Source of the DNA: an uncultured Pseudomonadota bacterium
GTDB lineage: Bacteria; Bdellovibrionota_B; Oligoflexia; Oligoflexales; CAIYRB01
Direction of reading: 5' to 3'
DNA length: 64,000 nucleotides
Assembly: GCA_903928445.1 (NCBI GenBank)
Contig: CAIYRB010000198.1
Location: 1 to 64,000 of the forward strand
This document shows, one piece after another, positions 7,044 to 54,881 of this stretch (positions are counted from its first letter, which is position 1; each line of letters starts with the position of its first letter). The position numbers and the translations under genes were made by a program. The notes beneath the pieces were generated by a model. It was not told the DNA's origin. It ran no database searches and worked only from the letters and a program-made list of their open reading frames with translations.

Positions 7044-9737
7044 AATTTGTGCACAAGATTTTTGCGGCTGTTTTTTTGACGTCCATGTCTATCGTCATAA
7101 TCGCTGCGATGAGTTTAAGCTGGGTTTTTGAACGCGAGCAGCTCAGATCCTTTACCGCTAGGTATGAGGCACTGGCCGAGTCGCTTGCTCACACGCTTGT
7201 TCAAGCGGAGAAAAACACCGATATCTTAATGAAGAATGCCGCGCTGGTCGTCCAAGCGAAGGAGTCCCAGAACAGGGGTTTGACGACGCAAGAGCTAAAG
7301 AATCTTGCTAATTTAACTGGTGTTACCCACGTGTTCCTGATTGATGCGAACGGCAAGTTTTTTAGATCCACAAATGAAGACCCTGACCTCATACCGAACC
7401 TTTTTTTTATTTAGTGAAAAATATCGAGGCCTTATAAACGGGACAAGCGACCTAGAAAAAACACCGATTATCCCTCCTCGCCCTGAGCCAACGCCTTTTA
7501 AGTTTGTGCTGGTGCCTAATGCTAAAAGAGATCGCATCATCGAATTGGGCATGAGGGTCGACTTTATATCGGCAACGCTCAAGCAAGCTCTAGCTGGCGA
7601 TCCCGAAGTTACCCAGCTAAGTCTCTACGCGTCAAATGGTGTATCACTTGGGACAGTGGGGCGAAGCGACGACCCAAAGCCAGCTCCTGGTGATGGGTTA
7701 AAGCAAGGTGTTGTACGAGATGATGAGCGAGAGATGACACTTGTCACTAAAATCGCTACCGACCAGGGCAGCGATGCCGAATATTTAACTAGCGCTGGCG
7801 GATATTTTTACACCCTATCTGCAACCGTCTCTAAAGGTGTGTTAATTCGTGACAGAACGCACATACGTAGATTCCTTTTTTTAGTCACTGTCGGAGGCTT
7901 TGTGGCCAGCCTCCTTCTAGCACTTTTTTTATCGAGACGGCTCGTGTCGAAGCTAAACATCATGACATCTAAGTTAAATCACGCATTTTCTGCCGATGAC
8001 TTACAAATGGACGTCAAATTGGACGGTGGAGACGAGATGGGGCAGCTATCAGCTGCCTTTGACTCTATGGCGTCTCGTTTACGCTCCAACCAGAAAAAGA
8101 TACTTGCTGCGCAGAAATCCGAAGCAATTGCTCAGATGATGCAGATGCTTGCCCACGATATCCGAAAGCCATTTTCGATGCTTAAAATGGGCCTAACGAT
8201 GCTGGGAAGAGCTGCGGACCCAGCTGGTGTCAAGGCGACCCTAGCCAAGGTTGTGCCCGAGATCGACAGGGCAATGGGCCACGTCAACGGCATGCTTGAG
8301 GACTTGCTTGAGGTCGGATCAACCTCGACCCAGCTTATTCAAGAGCCCGTCAGCCCCGAGGCCCTTATTGCGCAGACTCTTTGGGACATCTTCCGCGTCT
8401 ACCCGAAGGCAAATGTTTCTATTAGCTACAACTTTGGCCATACCCACGCCGTCAATGCCCACGTCCAAAAAGTAGGTAGGGTATTTAGCAACATAGTAGG
8501 GAACGCTGTCCAGGCAATGAACTATAAGGGGCAAATCTGGTTCGCCACGCGCGAGGTCGTCACCGAAGGCAAACCGTTCATCGCATTCATTTTGGGCAAC
8601 GCGGGCTCTGTGATTCCGCCAGAGAATCTAGCGAAGCTCTTCGATGCGTTCTTCACTAGCGGCAAGAAGGGCGGCACGGGTCTCGGGCTCGCGATCGCCC
8701 AGAAGGTAGTCATGGCGCACGGCGGCACCATTTGGTGCGAGTCCAGTAGGACCGCCCAGCATCCCGAGGGTCAGGTAGAGTTCAAGTTTACGCTGCCGAT
8801 TGCGGCAGGCCAGGCGGTGAAGACCACGGCCAACCTGCCGAACCACAGCTCCGAGATCACCAAGGACCTGCTGGCAGTCGATGAGGCGCCCGGATCTTCA
8901 CTATCAGGCCCCGACGCCACCGAGCTGTCACTGGAGGCTGACATTATAGCTATTGCGAAGGCCAAAGGTCGTCCGATTAGAGTGTTGATTGTAGATGACG
9001 AGGCGATCTACAGAAGCGGCCTCGCATCTTCGTTGTCGCGCAGCTCTGAGCTGGCGGCGGCGATTGTCCTGGTGGAGGCCAAGGATAACGACAATGGCCT
9101 TGCTAAGATCGGTGAAAGACCAGACCTCGTCATTACCGATGTTGATATGGGTCACGAGGTTAATGGCTTCGATTTCGTCACAGCCATTAGAGCGGCGGGA
9201 TTCGCTGGGCTTGTCTGCGTGCATTCAAACCGCATGGTTGCTGAGGACCACCGTACAGCCCTTGAGAGCGGCGCCGACGCCTTTATCAGCAAGCCAGCAT
9301 CGAGAGCGCAGTTGCTCAAGCTCGTTGTTCAAGCGGGTCAAAGGGCGTCGGCAGTGCGTCAGGGAGCAACTACCAAAGTCGCCACCAACGCGAAGCCCGA
9401 AGTCCTCGTTGTGGACGACAACATTTTTATTCTTGAGGCTTGGGAGGATATGTTGAAGGCCGATGCAACAGTCCACATGATCACCACTCAAGAAGACCTT
9501 GAAGCGCGGTTGGCTAAGGACCCTGAATTTTTGGAGCGCTTGTCTCTAGTCATAACCGACTTCCACTTCGATGGTTCCCGCTATGATGGCCAGGACGTCG
9601 CTCGGCTGATCAAGCAGCATCGACCTTCGCTTACGGTGCTCCTGTCTTCTGATGGCGTTTTTGCTGAGGGGCTGGACGGCCCTGACCGTATTATTGGCAA
9701 AGAGCCCGTCAAGTTGAGCAAGCTCGCCATGGCCTGA
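7040..9737 (+). pseudogene. Hybrid sensor histidine kinase with two receivers, frameshifted at a T8 run
   Basis: A membrane-bound two-component hybrid kinase, read as two ORFs (7040-7414 and 7341-9737). Removing one T from the T8 run at 7401-7408 gives one continuous protein of about 898 aa. Order of domains: TM1 (about residues 5-27), periplasmic sensor, TM2 (RRFLFLVTVGGFVASLLLALFL), HAMP, HisKA with phospho-accepting His in AHDIRKPF, and HATPase with N box NIVGNAVQAM and G box GGTGLGLAIA. Receiver 1 (VLIVDDEAIYRSG, VITDVDMG, ISKPAS) and receiver 2 (VLVVDDN, VITDFHFDG, GKEPVK) follow. The start ATG overlaps the cupin stop. The shift could be a real mutation, slippage at the homopolymer or a sequencing error. 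A decayed paralogue lies at 4440-5107. Confidence 0.88.
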
Positions 9738-9755
9738 AAGGCAAAAGAGTCCACC

Positions 9756-9998
9756 GTGAGCCTTAAAGACCTCAATCACCAAAACTTGATCGTCTACAGT
9801 ACCCACAGATCAAAGGCGGCGCTCATTACCTGCCTCATCTTCTCCTACAACGGCAAGCATGCGCATTTCGTCGACGGCTCAGACGGCGGCTACGCGCTAG
9901 CCGCCGTCGAACTCAAAGCCCGACTGCAGCTAGCGAAGCGAGGTAAGCCAAACCAGGACAACCCCGATTCACACCCTCAGCGCCGGAGAGCTCTATAG
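9756..9998 (+). CDS. Small hypothetical protein
   Basis: An 80-aa frame with a GTG start, 18 bases after the kinase gene. I do not recognise it. It has a hydrophobic patch (AALITCLIFSY), a glycine/histidine stretch and a basic C-terminus. Its stop overlaps the convergent stress-protein gene by six bases. There is only a weak AAGAG upstream. It could be a real short gene or chance. Confidence 0.3.
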   Translation: MSLKDLNHQNLIVYSTHRSKAALITCLIFSYNGKHAHFVDGSDGGYALAAVELKARLQLAKRGKPNQDNPDSHPQRRRAL

Positions 9999-31039: not shown

Positions 31040-31975
31040 TTATATAAAAAGAGCGCTTATGGAGTCGTCATTATGGATCCGGCGAATCGCCTTACCAAGC
31101 AGCTCGGCGAGGCTGAGCTGCGTGATCTTGCCGCAAGCCTGAGCCTGGGGCGAAAGCATGATGGAGTCGGTCACCACCAACTCTTCGATCTTCGAGTTCT
31201 GCAGATTGTCGATGGCTTTGCCACTCAGGACAGCGTGGCTGATAGCAGCTCGGACCGACAACGCTCCTGCCTCGATCAAGGCATCGGCGGCCTTGGTCAA
31301 AGACCCGGCGGTGTCGACGATATCATCGATGATCAGACAGTTTTTGCCGCGGACCTCGCCGATGACGTTCATGACCGCGCTTTCATTCGGCTTATCACGA
31401 CGCTTGTCGACGATCGCCAGGCCGCAATTAAAGTGCTTAGCCATGGCTCGAGCTCGCTCCACACCGCCAGCATCGGGTGACACCACCACCAGGTTTTCAC
31501 CGCGCTGAAAGTGGTTGGCAAACACCGGCTTGGCATAGAGGTGATCGACCGGAATGTTAAAGAACCCTTGGATGGCCGAGGTGTGTAGTTCCACCGTCAG
31601 CAGGCGATGAAAATGCGCCGCCTGAATCAAATCCGCGACCAGTTTGGCAGAAATCGGTGTCCGCGGAGCACTCTTGCGCTCCTGGCGAGCATAACCGAAA
31701 TAGGGCGCAACGAAGGTCACTCTTGAAGCCGAGGCGCGATGGCAAGCATCTGCCATGATCAACGCCTCCATCAGATGATGGTTGGACGGACATGAAGTCG
31801 ACTGGATGATAAAGACGTCGCGGCCCCGCACGTTGCTGTTGAGTTCAACGCGGGTTTCACCATCGGAGAACTGGGAGACCAAGGCCTCACCAAGCGGCAT
31901 ATCTAGCCAGTCACAGATCTTTTCAGCCAACGGGCGATTAGCGTTGCCTGAAAAAACAATGAGTTCGGCGTCCAT
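31040..31975 (-). CDS. prs: Ribose-phosphate pyrophosphokinase (PRPP synthase)
   Basis: It makes PRPP from ribose 5-phosphate and ATP for nucleotide, His and Trp synthesis. The class I enzyme features are VTFVAPYFGYARQERK, VVSPDAGGVERA, and the PRPP loop LIIDDIVDTAGSL. The ATG at 31975 (MDAELIVFSG) has GGGAG eight bases upstream, so I reject the ORF-track TTG at 31990. It is upstream of rplY on the same strand. prs, rplY and pth are commonly neighbours in proteobacteria. Confidence 0.96.
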   Translation of the reverse strand: MDAELIVFSGNANRPLAEKICDWLDMPLGEALVSQFSDGETRVELNSNVRGRDVFIIQSTSCPSNHHLMEALIMADACHRASASRVTFVAPYFGYARQERKSAPRTPISAKLVADLIQAAHFHRLLTVELHTSAIQGFFNIPVDHLYAKPVFANHFQRGENLVVVSPDAGGVERARAMAKHFNCGLAIVDKRRDKPNESAVMNVIGEVRGKNCLIIDDIVDTAGSLTKAADALIEAGALSVRAAISHAVLSGKAIDNLQNSKIEELVVTDSIMLSPQAQACGKITQLSLAELLGKAIRRIHNDDSISALFI

Positions 31976-39895: not shown

Positions 39896-41572
39896 TTATT
39901 CGTCGGTGACGCATCCGTGCGCCGCAGAGCCAACCGTCTTTATGTACTTAAACAGAAGCCCCTGAGTCACCTTCAATTCAGGCGCCGTCCAGCGCTGGCG
40001 CCGCGCCAGAGCCTCACTCTCGCTCACATCCCAGCTCATGGTCAGCGTCCTCGCATCGATGGTCACGACGTCACCATCGGCGACCAATGCGATAGGGCCT
40101 CCCACCTGCGCTTCGGGACAGACATGGCCAACGATAAAGCCATGCGACCCACCAGAAAATCGACCATCCGTGATCAACGCGACATCGTTGTGCAAGCCAG
40201 CACCGACAATCGCCGAGGTCGGCGTGAGCATCTCCGGCATCCCGGGACCGCCCTTTGGCCCCTCATATCGAATAATAATCACTTCACCTTTGACGATCGT
40301 CCCTTCGGTCAAGGCCCGAAGCATCGCCTCCTCGGAGTCAAACACTCTAGCTGGTCCGGTAAACGAGTGACCTTCTTTTCCCGTTATCTTTGCCACTGCA
40401 CCCTCGGGCGCAAGATTGCCGCGCAGGATCTTTAGATGACCCTGTGTATCCCCGGGGGAACTGACTTGGATGACCTCTTGCTTCGGACTTAGGCCAGATA
40501 ATGGTGCCAGATTCTCTGCCAAAGTCTGACCGGTCACGGTAAGGATGTCGCCATGGATCATTCCTCGCTCGAGGAGGTGCTTCAGCACCGCTGGAGTGCC
40601 ACCCACGGCATGTAAATCGCTCATCACAAACCGTCCACTGGGCTTCAGGTCCGCAATATAGGGAACCCTGGCGCTGATCCGAGCAAAATCGTCCAAACCA
40701 AACTCGACACCAACCGCCTTGGCCATGGCTATCAGATGCAGCACCGCATTCGTTGAGCCACCCAAAGCCATGGTGATGGCAACGGCATTTTCAAACGCTT
40801 TAAAAGTCATGATATCGCGCGGACAGATCTGTGCTTGCAAAAGCCGCAGCATGGCCGACCCTGCCGATCGACATTCGGCGATTTTACGAGGATCGGCAGC
40901 AGGCGTGGACGAAGAATAGGGTAGGGTCATACCCATCGCCTCGATCGCACAGGCCATCGTATTTGCCGTATACATACCGCCGCAAGCACCTTTGCCCGGA
41001 CAGCTGTGACGAACGATGGACTGCCTTTCCGTTTCGTCGATGGCACCACTCAAGGCTTGGCCGTAGCTTTGAAAAGCCGATACGACATCCAGGCGCTCAC
41101 CAGCAACACGGGACCCGGGCAGGGTTGAACCGCCGTAGATCATCAGACCCGGTCGATTGACGCGGCCCAAAGCCATCAATGCCCCTGGCATGTTTTTATC
41201 GCATCCAGGGATGGCCACACAGGCGTCGTACCACTGCGCCTGCATCACCGCCTCAATGGAATCGGCAATAATATCTCGCGAAGGCAGCGAATAACTCATG
41301 CCCCGAGTGCCCATCGAGATCCCATCGCTGACACCAATAGTGTGAAAGCGCATGCCCAAAAGCCCGGCTTCGGCGACCGACTCCTTCACTACGGCAGCCA
41401 GATCGCCCAAATGCATATTACAGGGGTTGCCATCGAACCAGTTGGCGACAATCCCCACCTGCGCTGAGTTCATTTGCTCAGGCGTAATGCCCGTCGCGTA
41501 CAGCATGGCCTGTGCCGCGCCATGGGCTCTGCTCTGGGTCAGCTGTGCGCTAAAACGATTGAGTAAAGACAT
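39896..41572 (-). CDS. ilvD: Dihydroxyacid dehydratase
   Basis: An Fe-S enzyme making the 2-oxo acids that precede valine and isoleucine. Cluster cysteines are in [17 protein letters not shown] and [17 protein letters not shown], and [16 protein letters not shown] is the conserved C-terminal motif. I place the start at ATG 41572 (MSLLNRFS), ten bases after GGAG; the track's 41596 adds eight residues. At 558 aa it is standard. Last gene of the ilvEBNCD operon. Confidence 0.96.
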
Positions 41573-41622
41573 CAACAAGACACTCCGTGCAATCAAAGGC
41601 GGACCATCGAAAACCGTCGCAA

Positions 41623-42633
41623 CTAAGTGGGCTTGGTAAAGGACATCCGTGAGCGAAGCGAAGCGCCAATCTTCTCCATCAGATGGCCTTGCTCCAAATG
41701 CCGCAGCTTTTTAAACGTCGCTCCGCCACTTTGATGTTCCGCGAGCCACTGGTTGGCGAACTCTCCAGCCTTGATGTGACCCAATACCTCCTGCATACGT
41801 TCACGCGTCTGAGCAGTCACGACTTTAGGTCCAACCAAATAATCGCCAAACTCAGCGGTATTCGAGATCGATGCACGCATGTGGGAGAGCCCACCTTCGT
41901 AAATCAAATCAACAATCAACTTCATCTCGTGGACACATTCGAAATAGGCCATAACCGGGCTATAACCATTCTCGACCAAGGTCTCAAAACCCATCTTCAT
42001 CAGACTAGTCAAGCCACCGCATAATACGGCCTGCTCGCCAAACAGATCGGTTTCCGTTTCTTCTTTGAACGTCGTCTGGAACACTCCCGCTCTGGTGCCG
42101 CCAATAGCCTTAGCATAGGACAAGGCAAGGCGCAGTGTATCTGGATGCTCTTCGTTAAGAACACCGACCAGACATGGAACCCCTTTTCCCTGCACGAATT
42201 GCTGACGGACGGTACGACCCGGACCTTTAGGCGCGGCAAGAAAGACTTCGACGCCTGCTGGCGGAACGATCTTACCAAAGTGAACGTTAAAGCCGTGGGC
42301 AAAAGCGAGAAAATCACCGGGCTTCAGGTTGGGCGCAATGTCTTGCTGGAAGACTTCAGCAGCGACTTCATCGGGCACAAGCATCATCACCACGTCAGCC
42401 CCAGAAGCTGCCTGGGCCGGGGTAAGCACCCGTAAACCCTCAGCCTCGGCCCGAGCCTTAGAGGCGCTGTGGAGAGGCAAGCCGACGGTCACCGCCACCT
42501 CACTATCACGCAGATTGAGGGCATGGGCATGACCCTGGCTGCCGTAGCCAATCACCGCGACCTTTTTACCGCGCAGCCACTTTAGATCCGCATCTTCATC
42601 GTAAAAGACCTTAAAATTATCGACACTCGTCAT
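41623..42633 (-). CDS. ilvC: Ketol-acid reductoisomerase
   Basis: An NADPH enzyme that rearranges and reduces acetolactate and acetohydroxybutyrate. The Rossmann loop is [18 protein letters not shown]. Catalytic residues lie in the [13 protein letters not shown] metal site and in the C-terminal knotted domain ([16 protein letters not shown]). At 336 aa it is the short class I form. ATG at 42633 has GGAG five bases upstream, so I start there rather than at 42651. Confidence 0.96.
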
Positions 42634-42656
42634 AGGTTCTCCATGGGACAATTAAG

Positions 42657-42989
42657 TTATGTGAGGGCTCTCTGGCCATATTCAAATTGTGAAGAGACGT
42701 CACTTTCGTTCCACTCGGCAACAGCCAGGCGTTCTACATCCACGAGCTTCACTAGGTCACGACATACGGAATCCAACTGGGAGCTATTGCCATGAAAGCG
42801 AAGCCTAATTTGAGCACCCTCCTCCTGGCCGGCCTCTGCCAAAGAAAAGGACGCGATATCTAGACCTCGACGCGAGAAAATAATCGCGACCCGAGCAATG
42901 ATGCCGAGCTCCCTACGAACACTGAGATGCAGGGAAAATAGCTTCTCCCTGACATTCAGAAAAGGCGAACCTGTCACTTTGGTCATCAT
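42657..42989 (-). CDS. ilvN: Acetolactate synthase regulatory subunit, short form
   Basis: An ACT-domain subunit that activates the catalytic subunit and gives feedback sensitivity. FSLHLSVRRELGIIARVAIIFSRRGLDIASFSLAEA matches the ACT fold. At about 110 aa it has little of the C-terminal domain of IlvH and resembles short forms such as IlvM or IlvN. ATG at 42989 follows GGGGAG by eight bases and immediately follows the ilvB stop; the track's 43043 start lies inside ilvB. Confidence 0.9.
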   Translation of the reverse strand: MMTKVTGSPFLNVREKLFSLHLSVRRELGIIARVAIIFSRRGLDIASFSLAEAGQEEGAQIRLRFHGNSSQLDSVCRDLVKLVDVERLAVAEWNESDVSSQFEYGQRALT

Positions 42990-42990
42990 G

Positions 42991-44739
42991 TTAGGTACTC
43001 CCCGTGGGCATCGGCAGAGCAACCGCTGGCGGCGACAAGACAATATCCTCTGCCGACCTGCCCGCTGGAATCATCGGCCAAACATTATCCTCGCTAACGA
43101 CTCTGGCGTGAATCAGACAAGGCCCTGCGTCATAGGCCAAGGCCTCCTGCAACATTGGCTGCATCTGGTCTTGCTGCTCGATGTAGAATCCCTTTATGCC
43201 GTAGGCCGCGCCCAATGCCAGAAAGTCAGGATTCCCCTCCAACAGGACGCTGCTAAGCCGGTTGTGATAAAACAGCTCTTGCCACTGCCGCACCATGCCA
43301 AGGCATTGATTGTCGATAATCAAAATTTTGATGGGTAACCGATGAATCGCCGCGGTCGCTAACTCGGCTTGAACCATCTGGAAACCACCGTCACCAACCA
43401 CGGCAATCACCGTCGCCTCAGGCCTAGCAAACTGCACGCCGATTGCGGCCGGCAGGCCGAAGCCCATGGTTCCAGCGCCGCCTGATGACAACCAGGTGCG
43501 TGGCGCCTTGGTCAACATGAACTGCGCTGCCCACATCTGATGCTGACCTACGTCCGTGGTGACGACGGCCTCGCGAGGCGCAGCTTCGTACATCGCCTGC
43601 ATGACCTGGGCCGCCCGAACTGGAAGACCCACAGCGGGAGTACCGACGGCTGAAAAATAACCACTGTCGCACCGCAGCGGATGGCTCTCGCGGTAGTCGC
43701 GCAGTTCCCGCAACCATTCAGCGGTAGGGAGCGGGCCGATATGTCGCAGGATTTCGCGCAGCGCAACCTTTGCATCCGCACATACTGCGGCGTCGGGCTG
43801 GACGACCCGGCCTATTTCGCCCGGATCGATATCGATATGCAGCTTCTTTGCTAGGGAGCAAAACCTCTCGTTGCAGCCATTGATGCGGTCGTCAAAGCGA
43901 CTACCGATCGACAGAATTAAGTCGCACCGGGTTGTGGCGTAGTTGGCATAGGCATTGCCATGCATCCCTAGCATTCCAAGCGACAATGGGTGTTGCTCTG
44001 GGAAGCCCCCTTTGCCAAGCAGGGTATTAGTGACCGGGGATTGCAAGGTTTCGGCTAGCCTCCCCACTTCAGGCGAGGCACCTGAGATAATAGCACCGTG
44101 GCCTACAAGCAGCAGCGGGCGCTGACTAGCCATGATCAGTCTGGCGATCTTTTGACACGCGAGGATTTGCTGTGGCGACAGTTCTGCCGCTACAGCAGCG
44201 TCTTCCTTTGCCGGGAACGACGGCTCATAGTCGATCTTAGTAGCCGAAATATCCTTAGGAAGATCCAGCAACACCGGTCCAGGGCGAAGACTTGTCGCAA
44301 TCTGAAACGCCCTGCGCACCGCTGGGGCAATGTCGTCAACACTCAAGATGAGGCGGCTATGCTTCACCAATGGCAAGGTAACGCCAAAAACATCGGCTTC
44401 CTGAAACGCATCCTTGCCGAGATTACCGCTGTTGGTCTGCCCAGAAATCACCAGCAAAGGCACCGAGTCCATCTTAGCGGTCAAAAGTCCAGTGACCGTG
44501 TTCAGCGCTCCGGGGCCACTCGTCACTAACACCACGCCAATTTTGCCGCTGGCTCTAGCGTAGCCATCCGCCATATGGGTTGCGCCCTGCTCATGACGAG
44601 CGAGGATCAGCTTAATTGGCGAGTCATAGAGCGCATCAAAGATATTGATTGCAGCACCACCTGGGTAGCCAAAGATATGGGTCACCCCAAGCTGCTCTAG
44701 TTCTTTGACAAGGATTTCCGCACCGCTGCGCAAAGTCAT
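42991..44739 (-). CDS. ilvB: Acetolactate synthase catalytic subunit
   Basis: A ThDP enzyme joining pyruvate with pyruvate or 2-oxobutanoate. The catalytic Glu is in [17 protein letters not shown], the FAD/regulatory middle domain includes GSRFDDRI, and the ThDP-Mg motif is GDGGFQM...IIDN. At 582 aa it is standard. It is 18 bases after ilvE and directly coupled to ilvN. Confidence 0.96.
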
Positions 44740-44757: not shown

Positions 44758-45849
44758 TTAGGTGTGACCGACACGGTGCAACCACCCATCTGGGGCAACC
44801 TGCCTGCCTGTTTGCATGGCCATGAGTTGATCCCTTAGTATTAGACTTAGAGACGACGGCGTCGAGGGCGGCACTTCATAGGTCGTTCCATCGATCTCCG
44901 CGAGCGCGTCGACTGGTGTAATCACCGCAGCCGTACCACAGGCAAACATTTCCGCGCACAGTCCACGCTTAATCGCCGCCAAAAGCTCGTCGATATGCAG
45001 CGGCTTCTCAGCCACCGGTATGTTTCTACCGCGTGCCAACTGAATGACACTGTCGCGCGTAACACCACGTAAGACTGAGTCGCTGACGCTTGGCGTACAG
45101 AGTTCACCATCGACTACGGCAAAGAAATTCATTCCCGAGAACTCTTCGATGTAGGACTTGTGAACGGCGTCTAGCCAGAGCGTTTGCTGACATCCGCGCT
45201 GCGTCGCCTTGATGTCGGCACGTATCCCGGCGCCGTAGTTACCTGCGACTTTATAAGCGCCTGTGCCGCCAGGTGCCGCACGGCAATCACGCCGCTCAAT
45301 CAGGGCGGTGACTTTTCCTGCCGCAAAATACCCACCCGATGGACTTGCTATGACCAGGAACACATAGGATGTCGAGGGCTTTAAGCTGAGTCCGACATCG
45401 GTCGCTAGCATCAAAGGGCGCAGGTATAAAGACTCATTTGGTCCCCGCGGAATCATCGGCTGAAGGTGCCAGACCAAGCTCTCCAGTGACTGCATAAACA
45501 ACTCGGAAGGGACCGCAGGCATGGCCATTCTTGCGGCCGAGTCATTGAGCCTCGCCAGATTCATCTGGGGCCTAAACAAGGCACCTTCACCTGTCTCTAA
45601 GGCAAACGCCTTCATCCCCTCAAAGACCTGCTGGCCGTAGTGCAGCGACTTGCAAGCCGGATCCAAGGTCAGCCCTTGGTACGGCACCAGCTCGGGCATC
45701 GACCATTCGCCGTTGCTATAGTCTGCGCGCACCATCACGGGAGCCATAACCTGGCCAAATCCAAGTGGCTCTTGGCGCTGATAAGATGCCACAGCTTGCT
45801 TCAGGTGCGGGGCTAGCGGGAGAAGTGGTCTGCTGACGATCGGTGCCAT
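44758..45849 (-). CDS. ilvE: Branched-chain amino acid aminotransferase
   Basis: A fold-IV PLP aminotransferase that performs the last step to Val, Leu and Ile. It is the longer (363 aa) mitochondrial/Bacillus-type form. Motifs are LHYGQQVFEGMKAF, the PLP lysine in GAYKVAGNYGAG, and EEFSGMNFF. It is the first gene after the attenuator and so the first controlled by it. AAGG lies nine bases before ATG. Confidence 0.95.
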   Translation of the reverse strand: MAPIVSRPLLPLAPHLKQAVASYQRQEPLGFGQVMAPVMVRADYSNGEWSMPELVPYQGLTLDPACKSLHYGQQVFEGMKAFALETGEGALFRPQMNLARLNDSAARMAMPAVPSELFMQSLESLVWHLQPMIPRGPNESLYLRPLMLATDVGLSLKPSTSYVFLVIASPSGGYFAAGKVTALIERRDCRAAPGGTGAYKVAGNYGAGIRADIKATQRGCQQTLWLDAVHKSYIEEFSGMNFFAVVDGELCTPSVSDSVLRGVTRDSVIQLARGRNIPVAEKPLHIDELLAAIKRGLCAEMFACGTAAVITPVDALAEIDGTTYEVPPSTPSSLSLILRDQLMAMQTGRQVAPDGWLHRVGHT

Positions 45850-45884: not shown

Positions 45885-45916
45885 AAAAAACCCGGGTCTT
45901 GGTTGAGACCCGGGTT
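45885..45916 (-). terminator. Attenuator terminator in the ilvEBNCD leader
   Basis: On the minus strand AACCCGGGTCT pairs perfectly with AGACCCGGGTT around a six-base loop, followed by TTTTTT. It stands between the leader peptide stop and the ilvE start, so it would end transcription before the operon. The 5' arm can also pair with AGACCC inside the leader peptide gene. Confidence 0.88.
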
Positions 45917-45942
45917 GCAAATTAAGCTAAAAGCTTGCGTTC

Positions 45943-46008
45943 CTAGGTCCTAAGTGGGTCTAGAATAATCGCAATAATCAAAATGTTGGCTGGTGTCAGG
46001 GGCATCAT
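45943..46008 (-). CDS. ilv leader peptide (21 aa)
   Basis: A short frame missed by the ORF track. It starts at ATG 46008 (a second ATG follows at 46005) and ends with TAG 27 bases before the terminator stem. The peptide contains ANILIIAIILDP; 5 of its 21 codons are Ile (ATT) and 4 are Leu. Such peptides measure charged tRNA supply in attenuation of ilv and leu operons. A stalled ribosome at the Ile run would leave AGACCC (within CTA GAC CCA) free to pair with GGGTCT of the terminator. The Shine-Dalgarno sequence is weak (GAG). Confidence 0.8.
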   Translation of the reverse strand: MMPLTPANILIIAIILDPLRT

Positions 46009-46089
46009 GATGCTCAAACTCGGCGGATAAGTATCGGTGGCTCAACTCTTGCCAAAGTGGAACTGATACCAGCCGTGGCGTGGGCCGGA

Positions 46090-46118
46090 CTCTAATCTCA
46101 TCGAAGGACGACTGTCAA
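46090..46118 (-). promoter_or_regulatory. Promoter of the ilvEBNCD operon
   Basis: A perfect -35 TTGACA and a -10-like TTAGAG at 17-base spacing, 20 bases after the ilvA stop and about 80 bases before the leader peptide. The -10 box is poor, which suits either a weak or an activated promoter. Confidence 0.5.
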
Positions 46119-46137: not shown

Positions 46138-47646
46138 TCACAGCAGCAAAGTATAGGCGGGATTTTCGCTCTCCCAGCTGAAAGGATAGCCGATTTGCTG
46201 CAGATGCCGCTCAAAATCCAGCCTTTCTTCGGGGCTTATCTCGAAGGCGATCAATACCCGGCCATAGTCAGCGCCATGGGAACGGTAGTGAAAAAGTGAA
46301 ATATTCCAGCGATGGCTGATCACCGCCAAAAAATCGGCCAGAGCACCCGGCCTCTCCGGAAAGACAAAGCTATAAAGTTCCTCTTCAATGGCCTGTGGCG
46401 CCCGCCCGCCCACCATATGACGAACATGCTCCTTCGCCAATTCATTGGCCGTTAAATCATGAAATTCATATCCATTTTGCTGCAAGCTCTCGATAAACCG
46501 TCCATGCATCGCACTGTGCTGTAGGGAGATCCCAAGGAGAATATAGGCCTCGGTTGCTCCACTTGTGCGATAATTGAACTCGGTGATACTGACGCCCTGC
46601 AGAATCGTTGTACAAAAATCTTTGAGCGAACCCGGCCTCTCCGCCAGCTTGATCGCCAGCAGACATTCACGCCCTGCACCAACGGTGGCCCGCTCGGCGA
46701 CAAATTGCAGCCTTTCGAAGTTCATGTTGGCGCCCGAGCTGATGGTCACAATATGCTGACCCTTCGCTCCAGTGGATTTAATGTAGGCTTTAGCACCTGC
46801 CCAAGACAGCGCTCCAGCAGGCTCCACCACAGTGCGGGTCTCGCGGTAGATGTCATGAATCGCTGAGCAAATTTCGTCCGTCGAGACTCGAATGAAGCCC
46901 TCGACCAAGGTCTGACAGATGGCAAAAGAATGGTGCCCAACCTGCTTAACCGCTACACCATCGGCAAATACCCCGACATTCTTGAGCACAACACGCTCGT
47001 GTGCCGCGACCGACCGAGCCATGGCATCGCTGTCGACGGGTTCAACGCCGTAGATGCGGACGTTCGGATAGAGAGCCTTGATGTAAATCGCTACCCCGGC
47101 TAAAAGTCCACCGCCACCGACTGGAACGAAGATGCAGTCTAGCTGGGGGCAATCCTCGACGATTTCTTTGCCAATGGTCCCCTGGCCGGCAATGACGAGC
47201 GGATCGTCAAAGGGATGAATCATGGTGGCCCCGGTATCTTGGGCTAGCTGCAGGCTGTGCTCGTAGGCCTGAGAGTAATGATCACCGACCAATATAACCT
47301 TCGCTCCATAGCTTGCGACCGCCTGGACCTTAATCTCCGGAGTCGTCGTCGGCATCACGACCCAGGCCGGAATTCCTAGCATCTTTGCCGAAAGCGCTAC
47401 ACCCTGACCATGGTTGCCTGCCGATGCGCAGATCACTCCTTTGGCCAGCTGCTCAGCACTCAAAGCCGCAATCTTGTTATAGGCACCGCGAATTTTGAAG
47501 GAAAAGATCGGCTGTAGATCTTCTCGCTTGATGTAGACCTTATTGCCGCTGGCAGCGCTCAGCGTTGGCGCCAAATCTAGGGGCGTGCGCCGTGCTACTT
47601 CATAGACGCGAGCTTTGAGAATTTCTTTAAACAGCCCTGAGTCCAT
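46138..47646 (-). CDS. ilvA: Threonine dehydratase, biosynthetic
   Basis: It makes 2-oxobutanoate, the first step to isoleucine. The PLP lysine is in FSFKIRGAYNK, with SAGNHGQGVALSA and VPVGGGGLLAGVA as cofactor loops. The C-terminal ~175 residues form two ACT-like domains (LLAIKLAERPGSLKDFCTTI and SFVFPERPGALADFLAVISHRWNISLFHYR), the arrangement through which Ile and Val act on E. coli IlvA. At 502 aa it matches the biosynthetic type. It lies upstream of the ilvE leader on the same strand with its own stop and no shared leader. Confidence 0.95.
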   Translation of the reverse strand: MDSGLFKEILKARVYEVARRTPLDLAPTLSAASGNKVYIKREDLQPIFSFKIRGAYNKIAALSAEQLAKGVICASAGNHGQGVALSAKMLGIPAWVVMPTTTPEIKVQAVASYGAKVILVGDHYSQAYEHSLQLAQDTGATMIHPFDDPLVIAGQGTIGKEIVEDCPQLDCIFVPVGGGGLLAGVAIYIKALYPNVRIYGVEPVDSDAMARSVAAHERVVLKNVGVFADGVAVKQVGHHSFAICQTLVEGFIRVSTDEICSAIHDIYRETRTVVEPAGALSWAGAKAYIKSTGAKGQHIVTISSGANMNFERLQFVAERATVGAGRECLLAIKLAERPGSLKDFCTTILQGVSITEFNYRTSGATEAYILLGISLQHSAMHGRFIESLQQNGYEFHDLTANELAKEHVRHMVGGRAPQAIEEELYSFVFPERPGALADFLAVISHRWNISLFHYRSHGADYGRVLIAFEISPEERLDFERHLQQIGYPFSWESENPAYTLLL

Positions 47647-47822: not shown

Positions 47823-50402
47823 TCAGCGATTGCCAGCCTTCCTTGCTCGCCGTGTCGACCACTGGTCAGTGACGTCGATTAATTTTTGCGCCATTTCTTG
47901 AATGGGCAGTTCGACTTCGACAGCACCATTCCGCATTGCCGCACCAGGCATGCCATAGACAACGCAGGTCGCCTCGTTCTGGCCCAATGTGTAGGCCCCA
48001 GACTCCCGCATGCGGAGCAATCCATCCGCCCCATCTTTTCCCATCCCGGTGAGAATCACGCCCACGGCGCCCGCACCCAAAACCTGCGCCCCCGAGCGAA
48101 ACAGCACGTCGACCGAAGGCATGTGCCCACTCACCGTTGATCCAGCAAAGACGCGCACCTTAAGTGCAGACGTCGTTTGCCTGAGATCCATTTGATAGCC
48201 ACCAGGTGCTATCAATACCCGACCATCTTTAACATCGTCGCCGTCAGCCGCCTCTTTAACTTCAAACGGCATAGTCGCGGCCAGGCTCGCGGCGAAGGCT
48301 TTGGAGAATTGTGCGGGAATATGCTGCACGATGACGATTGGCGGAATATTTGCTGGCATTTCCCGAAGAATCTCGCGCACAGCTTCAATTCCTCCGGTCG
48401 ATGATCCAATCAATATAATCGGGCGAATCCCACTCGCCTGGATCCGACGCCGAATCGGCGTAATTCTAGCTGGCTCGACGCGTACCTTAGCCCGACTAGC
48501 ACTCCTAAAGCGCTGGCAAATCTCGCTCGCGGACGCATCGATCTCACTTAGTGACGGCTTCTGAATGTAGTCGACGGCACCCGCCGCTAAGGCTTGCATC
48601 ACTTGATCACCCTGATCCATGCTCAAGGACGTGACCATCACGATCGGCAAGCGCAATTTTGGCACAAGAAGGCGTACTAAGGTCACACCGTCCACCTCCG
48701 GCATATTGACATCCAATGACAGTACGGTTGGTCTAAGTCGCGCGATCTGCTTTTCAACATCCAAAGGGTTTTGGCACTCGCCGACCACTTCAATGTCTGG
48801 GTCCCGAGCAAAGATATTACGCAACACCTGTCGGATCGTTTTCGAGTCGTCGACAATCAACACCCGAGTCTTTCCGTAGGAATCGTGTTGATTTCGTTCA
48901 ATAGGCAGCAAAGCACCGATTGGATTTTTAAAAGCACGGGATTCGCCAGGCGGCATCTCCCTTGAAGCCACCAACGGCTTACTCGCCTGCACTTGAGATT
49001 TACGCTCCAAGACACCCTGCGTAGGGGCAGCTGCGGTACCGACCGCATGGGTTGCCACCGCACACCTAAGCTTCATCTTTAATTCATCGCCGCGCTCCGC
49101 CATGTTACCCAAAGAGGGCTTCTCCACATAGTCGACGGCACCTAGTTCAAGGGTTTTCACGCCTAGCGTCGTTTCCTCGCGAGAAATCGAACTGAGCATG
49201 ACGATCGGCGGGTGCCCAAGCACTCGTCGCTGCTGCAGGTAGTCAACCCCGCTTTTCACTGGCATGTGTATGTCTAGCGCCATAACGTCAAAACTTAGGC
49301 GCGACGCCAGCTGTAAGGCTTCCTCGCCATTGGCTGCGGTACCAACGATGTCAAAACCCGCGTCCTTCGTCAGAATACTCTTAAGAATTGCCAGTATCGT
49401 CGGCGAATCATCGACCGCCAAAACACGAATGCGCGACTGTGGCAGCGTCTTCGTCTCTACCGTGCTTACAGTGGACTTGGTCACCCCAGCGCCACTTCCT
49501 GGGACATGACCTGTCATTGGGCTGGATAACACATCTGGCTTGGGAGCAAGCTGGTAGACAGAGGTACCAAGATTAGCAATAGGCAGCTTTAAGCCACTGA
49601 GGCTTTCTGTCGTGCCAATGACGAAATATGCATGAGAGGATAGAAATGCCATAATACGCGCAGTAACTTCGCGTATCTGTATCGGCGTAAAATAAATAAA
49701 AACGTTCCGACAGAAGACCAGATCGTAGGCCTCTCCCGGCTTGGGCGCTGATATCGCCATCAAGTTGCCGACATCAAAGCGACAAACCTGACGCAGAACA
49801 TCCTTAGCGCGAACAAAGTTCGCAATATCACCAGTCCCGCGCGCCCAGCAACCACTGGTATAGACCGCCGGAGCAGACTTGATCTCATCCATCCGATAGA
49901 CGCCATTCTTGGCAATCGCCACGGATTCAGGGTCAACATCGGTGGCATAGATTTCGAAGGTACCGCCAGGCATATGTTGCGGCCAATGCTGCGATAAAAA
50001 CATGGCCAATGAATAGGTTTCCTGGCCGCGGCTGCAAGCCATAGTCCAAACTCGCAGATGCCTTTTACCTAAGGCCTTGAGAGCTACCGCAATCCGGCCA
50101 AGGCCATGCTCCCGTAGAAACTCAAAGTGCTCGAATTCGCGAAAGAAAAAGGTATGATGCGTCGTCAGTAGAGAAACCAAAGCAGCGGTTTCAGCGGTCA
50201 GATGTGCCTCGAGGTAGCGCTCATAAGCACGTGGATCAGACATTCCCAGGTCGATCATACGCCGCGAAATGCGCGCTTCGACCATCGAACGCTGGCGCTC
50301 GCCAAGCTGAACGCCGGTAATTTCGTGAACCAAACCCGAGACTCGGTCGATCAAGCGCTGGCCAAGCTCAGGTGCTGGGAGCAACGGCGCAACTGTGGAC
50401 AT
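47823..50402 (-). CDS. CheR methyltransferase - receiver - receiver - CheB methylesterase fusion
   Basis: One 859-aa protein holding both opposed adaptation enzymes. CheR part (about 1-285): TTHHTFFFREFEHFEFL, SAM loop ACSRGQETYSLAM (family ACSTGEEPYSIAM), EIYATDVDPESV, LVFCRNVFIYF. Receiver 1 (about 325-445): VLAVDDSPTI, MALDIHMP, MLSSIS, VEKPS. Receiver 2 (about 515-630): VLIVDDSKTI, LSLDVNMP, MVTSLS, IQKPS. CheB (about 665-850): catalytic Ser in LIGSSTGG, His in VVQHIPAQF, Asp in LTGMGKDGADG. All catalytic and phosphorylation residues look intact. It is last in cheA-cheW-mcp-cheRB, with its ATG directly after the mcp stop. Confidence 0.93.
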   Translation of the reverse strand: MSTVAPLLPAPELGQRLIDRVSGLVHEITGVQLGERQRSMVEARISRRMIDLGMSDPRAYERYLEAHLTAETAALVSLLTTHHTFFFREFEHFEFLREHGLGRIAVALKALGKRHLRVWTMACSRGQETYSLAMFLSQHWPQHMPGGTFEIYATDVDPESVAIAKNGVYRMDEIKSAPAVYTSGCWARGTGDIANFVRAKDVLRQVCRFDVGNLMAISAPKPGEAYDLVFCRNVFIYFTPIQIREVTARIMAFLSSHAYFVIGTTESLSGLKLPIANLGTSVYQLAPKPDVLSSPMTGHVPGSGAGVTKSTVSTVETKTLPQSRIRVLAVDDSPTILAILKSILTKDAGFDIVGTAANGEEALQLASRLSFDVMALDIHMPVKSGVDYLQQRRVLGHPPIVMLSSISREETTLGVKTLELGAVDYVEKPSLGNMAERGDELKMKLRCAVATHAVGTAAAPTQGVLERKSQVQASKPLVASREMPPGESRAFKNPIGALLPIERNQHDSYGKTRVLIVDDSKTIRQVLRNIFARDPDIEVVGECQNPLDVEKQIARLRPTVLSLDVNMPEVDGVTLVRLLVPKLRLPIVMVTSLSMDQGDQVMQALAAGAVDYIQKPSLSEIDASASEICQRFRSASRAKVRVEPARITPIRRRIQASGIRPIILIGSSTGGIEAVREILREMPANIPPIVIVQHIPAQFSKAFAASLAATMPFEVKEAADGDDVKDGRVLIAPGGYQMDLRQTTSALKVRVFAGSTVSGHMPSVDVLFRSGAQVLGAGAVGVILTGMGKDGADGLLRMRESGAYTLGQNEATCVVYGMPGAAMRNGAVEVELPIQEMAQKLIDVTDQWSTRRARKAGNR

Positions 50403-52577
50403 CTAAAGGTCCTCAAAGCGGGGGTCATCGGCCATCGGCACGCTGTCACCACCGACGGCTTTAGCTGCGCGTGGGCGGCCCCCAGCCGCCGCATTTGCGG
50501 CGCGGTCGTTAGCTACAGCAAGCGATGGACTGGGGCGCCTTAATTCGTGTACCTGAGCGGAACGAACGGATTCGGTCGAGCGGTGCGAAGGAGACGTAGG
50601 CCTAGTGCTTGGCACCAACGGATGCCCCTGCTGTGGAGTGCGGGACGCAGGAGAAGCCGCACTTCCTTGTACGATCTGCCGCAGCTCCTGGGTGTTGTGA
50701 GCCAGCGTCGAAACTCGCTCAGCGATCCGTTCCGCTTCTTCAGCAGTTGACCTTGAAGCACTAGAGTTAGCATGAGTGACCTGATCGATCTGATTAATCG
50801 CCTTGGTGATTTCTGCAAGTCCGGTCGATGTCTCGGCCGTTGCATTCGATATTTCGCCGACCATGGCGCCAACACTGGTCACGTTTTGCACTACTTCCTC
50901 AAGCGCTACATCACATTGACGGGCCAGACCGACCCCGGTTTCAACCCGGGCGCGGCCACTGCGTACAGCTTGCTCCACCCTGGTTTTCGTATCGCTTACG
51001 ATCTGCTCGACTCGCCGAATCGATCCGTCGAGCATGTCAGAAATTTCCCTAGCGGCTTTGCCACTCATCTGCGCCAAATTGCCAACCTCTTCGGCAACGA
51101 CGGCGAATCCCTTACCGTGCTCTCCCGCACGGGCTGCCTCTACCGAGGCGTTAAACGACAGTAGTTTTGTTTGGAAGACGATCTCGTTGATGACTTTGGT
51201 TTTGCCGCCAATTTCATTGATCACTCGCGTAATTTCGACCAGTTGACGATTCGATTCCTCAACCTGGTGGGCGACCTCAGAATTGCTAGCATTGATTTCA
51301 TCCATAGCACCAATCATGCTCTGTACAGCGGCACGACTACGCCCAGCGGCATCTTGGCTTGATGCGGCGACTCGCCGAGACTGCTCGGCATTCTCAGCAC
51401 TTTTGCGGACCATTGCATTCATTTCTTCGACCGACGCCGCGGTTTCTTGCACCGCCGCCGCCTGTTCGGTAACCGCCGAAGCTAGTTCACTAGACGTCGT
51501 TGAAATGGCATCGGCAGCCTGCCTCGTCTCGTCAGTCGCTTGCACTAGAGCTGCATTTACCCTTGTCAGCTTGGCGGTGGTGCGATTTATCGCGACGTAG
51601 ACCAACACCATGGTCGCAAAGATAAGCAAAATCGAAATCACAGCCATCACCAATACATCGCCCTCGGCTGGATCATGCTTGGATATCATGACACCAACGC
51701 GCCAATTTAGACCTGGATAAGAGGAATAGCCCTTGGACGGGGCAACGCCGATATGGGCCGACCCAGACAACCCAGCAACCCGCGTGTCCCTGACAAAATT
51801 GCGCGGCGTCGTGGTCGCTGTTGCGGCCTCCGAGCTTAGGAACTTTTCCTTTAACACTGCGGTCTCTTTGCTCGAATCCGACAGCGTGGTTCCATCTTGG
51901 CGCATCAAAATCGTCTCAACTTGCTGCACCGACTCGCTTTTCGCTGTATTTGCTGACTCGGCTAGAACGGCTTGAACGACATCCTTCCATGACACGACAT
52001 TTCGCCACACTCCGATAAGCTCACCGTTTTTTCCATGAATCGGCGCTGAGAACGCCATTGCTGCGCCATCGCTGGAGAATGTTTGGCCACTCATTGCATC
52101 AAAATACAGGTCTTCAATAAATGAGGTTCCAGGCTTAACCGCGCCGCTGGTGTTCGCTTTAAACCATTCCGCGTCTGCCGCAGATTGGCCGATAAACCTT
52201 TGCATTTGTAACGGTTGACCAGTCTTTGACCCGCCATTCACCGCGACAAGTATCCCCTTCGCATCATAGACCGTCATAAGATCGTAGATCGGAGCATAGA
52301 TCTTGATCATGACATCCATGAAGTCGCGGATTTTCTGCGCATCTCCGCTTATTGCTGCTTCAGACGAAGCAAATGCTTGAACATCGCCGTAGCGCTCAAA
52401 CAAGTTACGGTCGAGAATATCAGCAATGGTCTTTGCCGCCGTTTCAGATACAATACCTCGACCCCTATCAATCGTTCGAATCTCGCTCCAAATATTGATG
52501 AGCGTCGATGAAACGCCGATGATCCCAAGTACCAGAGTCAGTGCCAGGAGGCGAAATTTGAGTGATCGATGCTGCAT
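50403..52577 (-). CDS. Methyl-accepting chemotaxis protein
   Basis: An inner-membrane chemoreceptor. TM1 ([21 protein letters not shown]) is followed by a large ~280-aa periplasmic dCache-like sensor, TM2 ([22 protein letters not shown]) and a signalling coiled coil with hairpin tip [33 protein letters not shown]. After the coil there is an ~80-aa Ser/Pro/Arg-rich tail ending DDPRFEDL. A flexible tail ending in an acidic-aromatic motif resembles the tethers that dock adaptation enzymes, so it may recruit the adjacent CheR-CheB fusion; that is inference. Ligand unknown. Confidence 0.93.
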
Positions 52578-52620
52578 ATGATACCCCTATGTTGTTCGTT
52601 TAATTTCTTTGAAAAAATAT

Positions 52621-53130
52621 TTACGATGCTGCGGCCAACTTTTTCATCGCGATTAAATCCTCCAGAGAGAGGGCCTTTGGCAGGTCAAGCACCAGCACCA
52701 AGCGTTGATCCCGTCTAGCCACACCCTGGATATATTCGGCATTAACTCGAGTATCGACGTCTGGCCGAGGAGCAATATCCGCATCATCCAAGGTCATCAC
52801 GGCCTCCACGGAATCAACGACGACGCCAAACCTGAGTGGTTCAAAGTCACAGATGACCACCGCAGTTTCACTACTCCGCTCTGATTTGAAGCCAAGCTTG
52901 GCTCGCAAATCAAAGATAGAAATGATCTGACCACGTAGGTTCATGATGCCGAGAAAGTGTGCTGGTGTATGCGGGACTCGCGTCGTCTCGGGCATGGCAA
53001 CTACTTCCCGAATCGATAGCAGCGGTATTGCGAAGTCCTCCTCGGCAAGGCGGAAGCGAAGGTAGCGACTGTGATGACTTGATGCAGCACCTTTGACGAG
53101 TGCTAGTCCCTGATGTGTTCTTTCGTTCAT
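52621..53130 (-). CDS. cheW: Chemotaxis adaptor CheW
   Basis: It couples receptors to CheA. A 169-aa CheW domain: YLRFRLAEEDFAIPLLSIREVVAM, HFLGIMNLRGQIISIFDLRAKLG (conserved N-L-R-G) and FGVVVDSVEAVMTL. It overlaps the cheA stop by four bases (53127-53130), so the genes are coupled. A few extra residues at the N-terminus (about 20) have no recognised role. Confidence 0.95.
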   Translation of the reverse strand: MNERTHQGLALVKGAASSHHSRYLRFRLAEEDFAIPLLSIREVVAMPETTRVPHTPAHFLGIMNLRGQIISIFDLRAKLGFKSERSSETAVVICDFEPLRFGVVVDSVEAVMTLDDADIAPRPDVDTRVNAEYIQGVARRDQRLVLVLDLPKALSLEDLIAMKKLAAAS

Positions 53131-54881
53131 GCGGCACCCCTGGATCTTTTGTCCTTTTTAACTAGCTCCTTGAGATCAAGAATCAGCGCCGCGGTACCAT
53201 CGCCGAGAACGGCTCCTCCGGTCACGCCACGCGATTGCCTGACTTCACTGCCGAGTCGCTTGATCACCACCTGTTGCCTCGACACGATTTCATCAACCGT
53301 GATGGCAAATGGTTGACCCTTATCGCGAATGATCATCGCGGTTTCGTCTGGTGGCTGATTCTTCAGTCCGCGCTGGCCCAACTGTGTGGCGAGTGAATGC
53401 ATCGGAATATGCTCTCCGCGCAGGCTCAAAATGGCGCCCAGCCCGACGACGTTGTGAACATCCTCGCGGCGTGCGCGAATGGACTCATGCACCTGCGTCA
53501 AAGGAATCACGTAGCGCTCACTACCCGACCGCACCACGAGGCCATCGATAATCGCTAGGGTCAACGGCAGGTAGATGCGAAAAGTCGTGCCCTTTCCTAG
53601 CTCTGTCACCATTTGGATCTCACCCTTCAGCACTGTTTCGACGTTGGTCTTCACCACATCCATGCCAACCCCACGTCCGGAGATATCTGATGCGGATGCC
53701 TTGGTGGAAAACCCTGCGATGAAAATCAGGTTTTGACACTCCTCTTGGGTCAAAGACTGGTCGGTTCGAATCAGACCTTTCTCGACGGCCTTCTGCCGCA
53801 AAACCTGGGCGTTTAGGCCCTTCCCATCGTCGGATATTTCCAACATGATTTTTCCACCCTCATGCCCCGCCGAAAGGCGGATGCGACCTTTGGCAGACTT
53901 ACCAGCCGCCGCGCGTTCACCAGGTGTTTCAATGCCGTGATCAGAGGCATTGCGGATGAGATGCACCAAGGGATCGCCAAGCAGGTCCACGACCGTCTTG
54001 TCCAATTCGGTATCTTCACCATTGAGCTCTAGCTCGATTTCCTTACCGAGGCTTTTTGCGGTGTCGCGGACAATGCGCTGCATTTTTTGAAAGGTCTGGC
54101 GCAGCGGCATCATCCGCAGACTCATTGAATTGTCCTGGATTTCCTTTGTAATTTTTGCTAGTTGAACCACAGTCTTCTGCAACAGCGGTGATTCAATCTG
54201 ATGCCGCTGCTGACTTAAAACAGTCTGCAAAATGACCAGCTCACCGATCATGGTGACGAGGCTGTCAACCCGCCCAAGGCTGACGCGAATACTGTCGTCT
54301 ACGACGGAAGACACGGCTTTCTTAGCCGCAGCGGCTTCAACCTGCGCCTTGGCAAGGTTAGCTGCCGGGGGAGGTAAGGGTTGATCAACAGGTGGGTGCA
54401 GCATGGAGGCTACAGCAGCCTGCTCAGGCTCTACAGGTGGCGCGGGATCCGTAAATATCTCAAAGCCAACCTCAGCAACGCTACTTGGGTTCGCTAGCTG
54501 GCCATTGATCGCCGCCTTTAGCCGTTCAGCAAGCTCTGGATCGGTGGCCACTGCGTCACCGCCGCGTTGACCGAGTACCATACGCCTAAGTTCGTCATTG
54601 CATCGTAAGAGCAAGTCAAAGACCTGCTGTGACACAGGAATTTCCTGATTTTTAATCTTCAGCATCAGGGACTCGAGATCGTGGGTAAATGCGCCAATCT
54701 CTGCCAAGCCCACAGCCTTCGAACTGCCCTTTAGGTTATGGGCTGAACGAAAGATTTGATCGATTAGTTGGGTATTCGTTCGATCGTTTTCCCAAGCCAA
54801 AAACGCGTGTTCCAGCGTCTCAAGCGTATCGACCGCTTCTTCAAGGAAAGTAGCCCTAAGCTGTTGCTGTAATTCGTCCAC
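53127..54881 (-). CDS. cheA: Chemotaxis histidine kinase CheA
   Basis: The receptor-coupled kinase. P1 has the phospho-accepting His in FRSAHNLKGSSKAVG (about residue 48). A Pro/Ala-rich linker of ~70 residues takes the place of a P2 (CheY/CheB-binding) domain. P3 dimer (SLGRVDSLVTMIGELVILQ), P4 ATPase (DPLVHLIRNASDHGIE, ISDDGKGLN, GRGVGMDVVK, GKGTTF) and CheW-like P5 follow. At 584 aa it is shorter than E. coli CheA, consistent with loss of P2. No cheY is in the operon; receivers exist in the CheR-CheB fusion. Confidence 0.95.
   Translation of the reverse strand: MDELQQQLRATFLEEAVDTLETLEHAFLAWENDRTNTQLIDQIFRSAHNLKGSSKAVGLAEIGAFTHDLESLMLKIKNQEIPVSQQVFDLLLRCNDELRRMVLGQRGGDAVATDPELAERLKAAINGQLANPSSVAEVGFEIFTDPAPPVEPEQAAVASMLHPPVDQPLPPPAANLAKAQVEAAAAKKAVSSVVDDSIRVSLGRVDSLVTMIGELVILQTVLSQQRHQIESPLLQKTVVQLAKITKEIQDNSMSLRMMPLRQTFQKMQRIVRDTAKSLGKEIELELNGEDTELDKTVVDLLGDPLVHLIRNASDHGIETPGERAAAGKSAKGRIRLSAGHEGGKIMLEISDDGKGLNAQVLRQKAVEKGLIRTDQSLTQEECQNLIFIAGFSTKASASDISGRGVGMDVVKTNVETVLKGEIQMVTELGKGTTFRIYLPLTLAIIDGLVVRSGSERYVIPLTQVHESIRARREDVHNVVGLGAILSLRGEHIPMHSLATQLGQRGLKNQPPDETAMIIRDKGQPFAITVDEIVSRQQVVIKRLGSEVRQSRGVTGGAVLGDGTAALILDLKELVKKDKRSRGAA

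Follow-up and report, generated by a model that had tools for sequence, protein, structure and literature searches.

In Escherichia coli, the attenuators of the ilvGMEDA and ilvBN operons (ilvL and ilvBL) combine a leader open reading frame (ORF) rich in codons for branched-chain amino acids (BCAAs) with a terminator and an alternative antiterminator pairing, and earlier comparative surveys of proteobacterial attenuators exist. The E. coli ilv leader attenuators are cited in PMC10272879, where the ilvB-OMG and Leptospira ilvB motifs appear as predicted BCAA-rich upstream ORFs (uORFs) that precede ilvB in various phyla. Attenuation is backed by reporter assays or mutational analysis for two actinobacterial leaders, the ilvB-II motif of Corynebacterium and that of C. 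glutamicum ilvBNC (PMC10272879, PMC11857589).

The leader considered here precedes an ilvEBNCD operon on the minus strand of the window, by which is meant the whole 64,000-nucleotide stretch of DNA analysed, from an uncultured bacterium of the GTDB lineage Bdellovibrionota_B. It shares with the E. coli ilvGMEDA and ilvBN leaders a BCAA-rich ORF, a terminator before ilv genes and a putative alternative antiterminator, but it differs from ilvL and ilvBL in the operon that it precedes, in its shorter, Ile-dominated leader, in its phylum, and in a predicted antiterminator arm that overlaps the stop codon, and no sequence relationship between them is detectable in Rfam. With ilvB-II and C. glutamicum ilvBNC it has in common a BCAA-codon-rich uORF and a terminator before ilv genes; those actinobacterial leaders stand upstream of ilvB, whereas this one stands upstream of ilvE and has no Rfam match. 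The uORFs of ilvB-OMG and Leptospira ilvB carry many threonine codons as well and precede ilvB, in contrast to the present leader, which precedes ilvE and has no related Rfam match at E<=10. The mechanism itself is textbook; for its occurrence in this uncultured lineage, no earlier description was found in the literature searched, which lay mostly outside subscription journals.

Gene identities were taken from NCBIfam models with curated cut-offs, and they bear out the order ilvE-B-N-C-D read earlier from the letters alone. The first gene under the putative attenuator is ilvE (44758..45849; branched-chain aminotransferase; TIGR01123, 317.5 bits), followed by ilvB (42991..44739; acetolactate synthase large subunit; TIGR00118), ilvN (42657..43043; acetolactate synthase small subunit), ilvC (41623..42651; ketol-acid reductoisomerase; TIGR00465) and ilvD (39896..41596; dihydroxy-acid dehydratase; TIGR00110), all on the minus strand. 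Each scores over its cut-off except ilvN, which overlaps ilvB, has an uncertain start and reaches a best E of 1.5e-10, below the curated cut-off. The operon thus encodes enzymes for Ile and Val synthesis. Immediately upstream of the leader, also on the minus strand, lies ilvA (46138..47646; biosynthetic threonine ammonia-lyase; TIGR01124, over cut-off), which by its position is outside the control of the attenuator; no separate leader was found before ilvA in the window's genus. Directly upstream of ilvA, the minus strand at 47823-54881 carries a chemotaxis-like gene run, judged from sequence alone, with a CheR/CheB-like response regulator fusion and methyl-accepting, CheW-like and CheA-like proteins; this region is different in the sister L099.

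Between ilvA and ilvE, the minus strand holds a 21-codon ORF, MMPLTPANILIIAIILDPLRT, running from ATG at 46008 to the TAG stop codon at 45945-45943 (46008-45943), as the earlier note had recognized in describing an unlisted, ATT-rich leader frame. Its start codon is uncertain because the upstream Shine-Dalgarno sequence is weak, and alternative starts occur at ATG 46005 and TTG 46017. The putative regulatory codons, ATT TTG ATT ATT GCG ATT ATT CTA (I L I I A I I L; 45961-45984, minus strand), belong to a run of I/L/V codons that is kept in all relatives. With 5 Ile, 4 Leu and 0 Val residues, the leader does contain both amino acids of the 'Ile/Leu' attenuator first proposed, but Ile dominates; all 5 Ile codons fall within codons 9-15, the last two being codons 14 and 15. 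The short ORF thus carries a codon run for an amino acid made by ilvEBNCD, and when the 288-nt intergenic region was shuffled 3000 times with its dinucleotides preserved, an ORF of equal I/L/V density arose in just 6 of the shuffles.

Between this ORF and ilvE, the first structural gene, a sequence scan detects a strong predicted intrinsic terminator on the minus strand, with an 11-bp stem and a 6-nt loop at 45916-45889 and a U tract extending to 45885 (AACCCGGGTCT-CAACCA-AGACCCGGGTT, then a T run, over 45916-45885). The perfect stem and U run of the original description are therefore present, and the stem pairing covaries in relatives, with both sides changed at 5 of the 11 pairs among 7 distinct leaders. 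The 206-nt leader is also more stable than all 200 of its shuffles (z = -3.3). The promoter placed ahead of the leader ORF in the earlier note fares less well: the candidate TTGACA-18-TAGAGT (46118-46089, minus strand) matches at 10 of 12 positions and both hexamers are identical in L002, the sister genome with 97% IlvE identity, yet the scan yields 1 promoter-like site against 1.1 expected by chance.

A search with the ilvE protein covered 58 genomes of the phylum, which belong to a single class; an orthologue at E <= 1e-75 occurs in 8 of them (50-97% identity, four genera in three families). All 8 have a leader ORF and a terminator before ilvE, and the leaders of the 7 genomes other than the window's are likewise 19-21 codons long and I/L/V-rich, with the frame open in every case. 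The leader of L002 is identical to that of the window; the others are L003 (MIASNIIIISIIATILRRDRT), L004 (VITFQIIIIAIISSILERDRT), L005 (VRQIQIIIAIISSILPRDRN), L006 (MFKKISNIMILIVVIIRET), L007 (MQNIIVNIVVILVVLLSEQET) and L008 (MLNINVIIVILIVLLVSERT). Because the arrangement recurs in seven further genomes, chance can be dismissed, and the Ile-rich frame and terminator, on whose persistence in relatives the earlier note had made its proposal depend, have both been kept. A covariance model built from the 7 distinct leaders matches exactly these 8 genomes at E <= 2.5e-12 and finds no match at E <= 0.01 in the remaining 50; the positives are not independent, since the model was trained on the matched leaders, but the absence from the other 50 is. 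Its weak matches to genomes beyond these 8, with E 0.03 at best, were taken as chance. The ilvE genes of class-level relatives (37-41% identity) were also scanned, and no BCAA leader with terminator was found before them. A search for 16S rRNA, intended for placing the genome, gave no match in these assemblies. In G005, a member of the same genus, neither an ilvE orthologue nor ilvB was detected at the thresholds used; operon and attenuator seem to have been lost together there, or to be missing from the assembly.

Gene order around the leader varies among these genomes. It is ilvA, leader, ilvE-B-N-C-D in the window's genus, and leader, ilvE-B-N-C-D-A in G023. In G022 the leader is followed by ilvE-D-A; the separate ilvBNC sits on a different contig, where no leader rich in I/L/V and followed by a terminator was found before it. 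In G011 the leader is followed by ilvE-B-C-D, and the stretch taken gave no match to ilvA or ilvN. From these orders, the putative attenuator stays with ilvE through operon rearrangement. The same orders bear on a reading in which the hairpin is simply the transcription terminator of ilvA, the Ile-rich ORF is accidental and ilvE is expressed from a constitutive promoter. The location of ilvA just upstream in the window's genus suits this reading, since transcripts of ilvA would stop at the hairpin as well, but both elements, leader and terminator, persist where ilvA is downstream of ilvE (G022 and G023) or is not upstream (G011). Moreover, the leader retains the same length across 50% IlvE identity, and a terminator that stands between leader ORF and ilvE in 8 of 8 genomes would block a constitutive ilvE transcript, which leaves a plain ilvA terminator with very little probability. 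In place of ribosome sensing, a riboswitch that binds a ligand or an antiterminator that depends on a protein could be considered, since either would fit with a terminator conserved ahead of a biosynthetic operon. Against this, a search of the leader with all 4227 Rfam models gave no family at gathering score and, at a relaxed E<=10, unrelated families alone; in addition, consensus folding of the 7 leaders finds the terminator as the sole conserved structure, the conservation upstream of it being that of the coding frame of I/L/V codons. Control by a ligand or protein is accordingly just as improbable. Ribosome-mediated transcription attenuation of the classical kind, as suggested in the earlier note, very probably controls ilvEBNCD, a reading well supported by the conserved frame, the leader length, the terminator and a predicted alternative pairing.

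Which segment of the leader forms the antiterminator can be asked of the same seven sequences. The 3' arm would be segment 3, CCCGGGTCT (45906..45914, minus strand), which also serves as the 5' arm of the terminator. For the 5' arm, the relatives support segment 2, GGACCTAGG (45942..45950, minus strand), which overlaps the stop codon TAG at 45945-45943. The earlier note had instead proposed AGACCC (45956..45961, minus strand), pairing with GGGTCT in the terminator 5' arm. That complementarity is real, with six Watson-Crick pairs and a duplex energy of -10.7 kcal/mol, close to the -11.4 kcal/mol of the GGACCTAGG : CCCGGGTCT duplex in the window, which comprises eight pairs, two of them G-U, and an A-C mismatch; energy alone therefore does not decide between the arms. 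It is position and conservation that separate them, favouring GGACCTAGG. Each distinct leader was examined for the segment that pairs best with the terminator 5' arm. Counted from the first base of the stop codon, this segment lies within -11 to +10 in all seven: L003-L005 (-11 to -4), the window (-5 to +3), L007 (-4 to +4), L008 (-7 to +3) and L006 (+2 to +10). All seven leaders thus have an arm at the stop codon or adjoining it, whereas a counterpart of AGACCC exists only in the 97%-identical sister genome.

The position of the ribosome also argues against AGACCC. With an assumed ribosome footprint of 12 nt downstream, an A-site at codons 13 to 16 covers AGACCC and leaves GGACCTAGG free, so that, contrary to the original suggestion that a ribosome stalled at Ile codons would leave AGACCC available, the segment is covered at the last two of them. 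With the ribosome further upstream, at codons 7-12, AGACCC is free in the folding model, but it pairs with a probability of only 0.2-0.26, as compared to 0.67-0.75 for GGACCTAGG. AGACCC as antiterminator arm is probably wrong on these grounds; a version of the same attenuator in which it is the working arm (45961-45956) appears most unlikely, and its predicted pairing is a minor alternative.

Masked folding, in which RNA transcribed only to the terminator loop is folded with the ribosome position masked, is consistent with a switch that uses segments 2 and 3. The 2:3 pairing has a probability of 1.00 in all 7 distinct leaders when the ribosome stands on the last Ile codon, and of 0.00 in all 7 when it has reached the stop codon; in silico, therefore, each leader has an antiterminator that excludes the terminator, is freed by stalling and is covered at the stop codon, although individual p values are modest. 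The energy gain from stop to stalled position was equalled by a fraction of 0.007-0.149 of dinucleotide shuffles, depending on the leader, and Fisher's combined chi-square is 53.5 with 14 df, to which L003-L005 do not contribute independently. By the looser test of 2:3 duplex energy against shuffles, the window gives p = 0.12, and the 2:3 pairing is often marginal leader by leader; when arms were exchanged between leaders in a cross-arm duplex matrix, the native pair was not always favoured. The earlier note had looked to covariation in both pairings, and it is found in the terminator but is mixed, and not clean, in the 2:3 helix, for which consistent position and the folding model provide the support. 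Full-length folds always prefer the terminator, so the predicted switch depends on co-transcriptional timing, and such a preference is as expected for a kinetic switch. A further element, segment 1 (TTCTAG, 45960..45965, minus strand), is predicted to form a protector hairpin with CTAGGA (45946-45941) in RNA free of ribosomes; this 1:2 structure is predicted for the window sequence (= L002) and L008 only, and not for L003-L007.

Taken in sequence, the proposed mechanism would begin with transcription of the leader by RNA polymerase and, at the same time, translation of the 21-codon Ile-rich ORF by a ribosome. Were charged tRNA-Ile ample, the ribosome would reach the stop codon and cover GGACCTAGG (45950-45942), leaving CCCGGGTCT free, so that the terminator would form and transcription would end before ilvE. 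Were isoleucine short, the ribosome would stall in the ATT run, GGACCTAGG would be free to pair with CCCGGGTCT, and, with the terminator thereby blocked, ilvEBNCD would be transcribed. In the window's species, termination would be the default without translation, as the 1:2 hairpin (TTCTAG/CTAGGA) would hide segment 2. Of this scheme, the analysis shows the sequence features, their conservation, the covariation of the terminator and the mutually exclusive pairings of the folding models. The transcription start, the translation of the ORF, the stalling and the change in read-through are inferred.

The amino acid content of the leaders is not uniform. Excluding start codons, leaders in the window's genus have 5-8 Ile, 0 Val and 1-4 Leu, and those in G022, G011 and G023 have 4-6 Ile, 2-5 Val and 1-4 Leu. 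The latter three genera have leuB over cut-off together with leuA and leuC homologues near the ilv genes; in the window's genus no leuB was found (best E 4e-6 to 1e-4), nor a convincing leuA, and a leuC-like gene below cut-off is present in the window genome and its sister. It is possible, although doubtful, that leader codon content tracks the pathway repertoire and that the sensor was retuned to Ile when the window's genus lost the leucine pathway, a contrast of one genus with three others that is a lead only. Elsewhere in the window's genome (G000:C193:3252-14396), two leuC-like genes lie together, one of them below the leuC cut-off at 507 bits, along with two weak leuA-like genes of 323-333 aa, in a genome without leuB; these possibly belong to a different pathway.

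The lineage appears to use the leader-peptide strategy elsewhere, because leuA of G023 and of G011 is preceded by Leu-rich leader ORFs with terminators. At L106 (G023:C668, about 9670-9990), leuA is divergent from the ilv leader and has its own Leu-rich ORF, ending SLLLLLCLLT*, followed by a terminator, AGCCTTGGTAGTTAACCAAGGCT-T7; judged by eye, AAGCCTTGG in the terminator arm could be paired by the post-stop segment CCAAGAGCTT. L129 (G011:C76), in the region ahead of leuA at 31701, has a Leu/Ile-rich ORF (ISLSSILINLSILGLIIILLGGGPPL*) and then a terminator, GGCTCCAC-GTGGAGCC-T8, and is a probable second leu attenuator. A Trp-rich leader was also sought before trpE in the genus, where short, spurious W-containing frames alone were seen, and no conserved leader.

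Attenuation by BCAA leader peptides would thus extend to an uncultured lineage, with the exact segments named. The leaders across four genera may, in turn, serve as a small natural test set for whether codon composition reflects which amino acids a cell can still produce.
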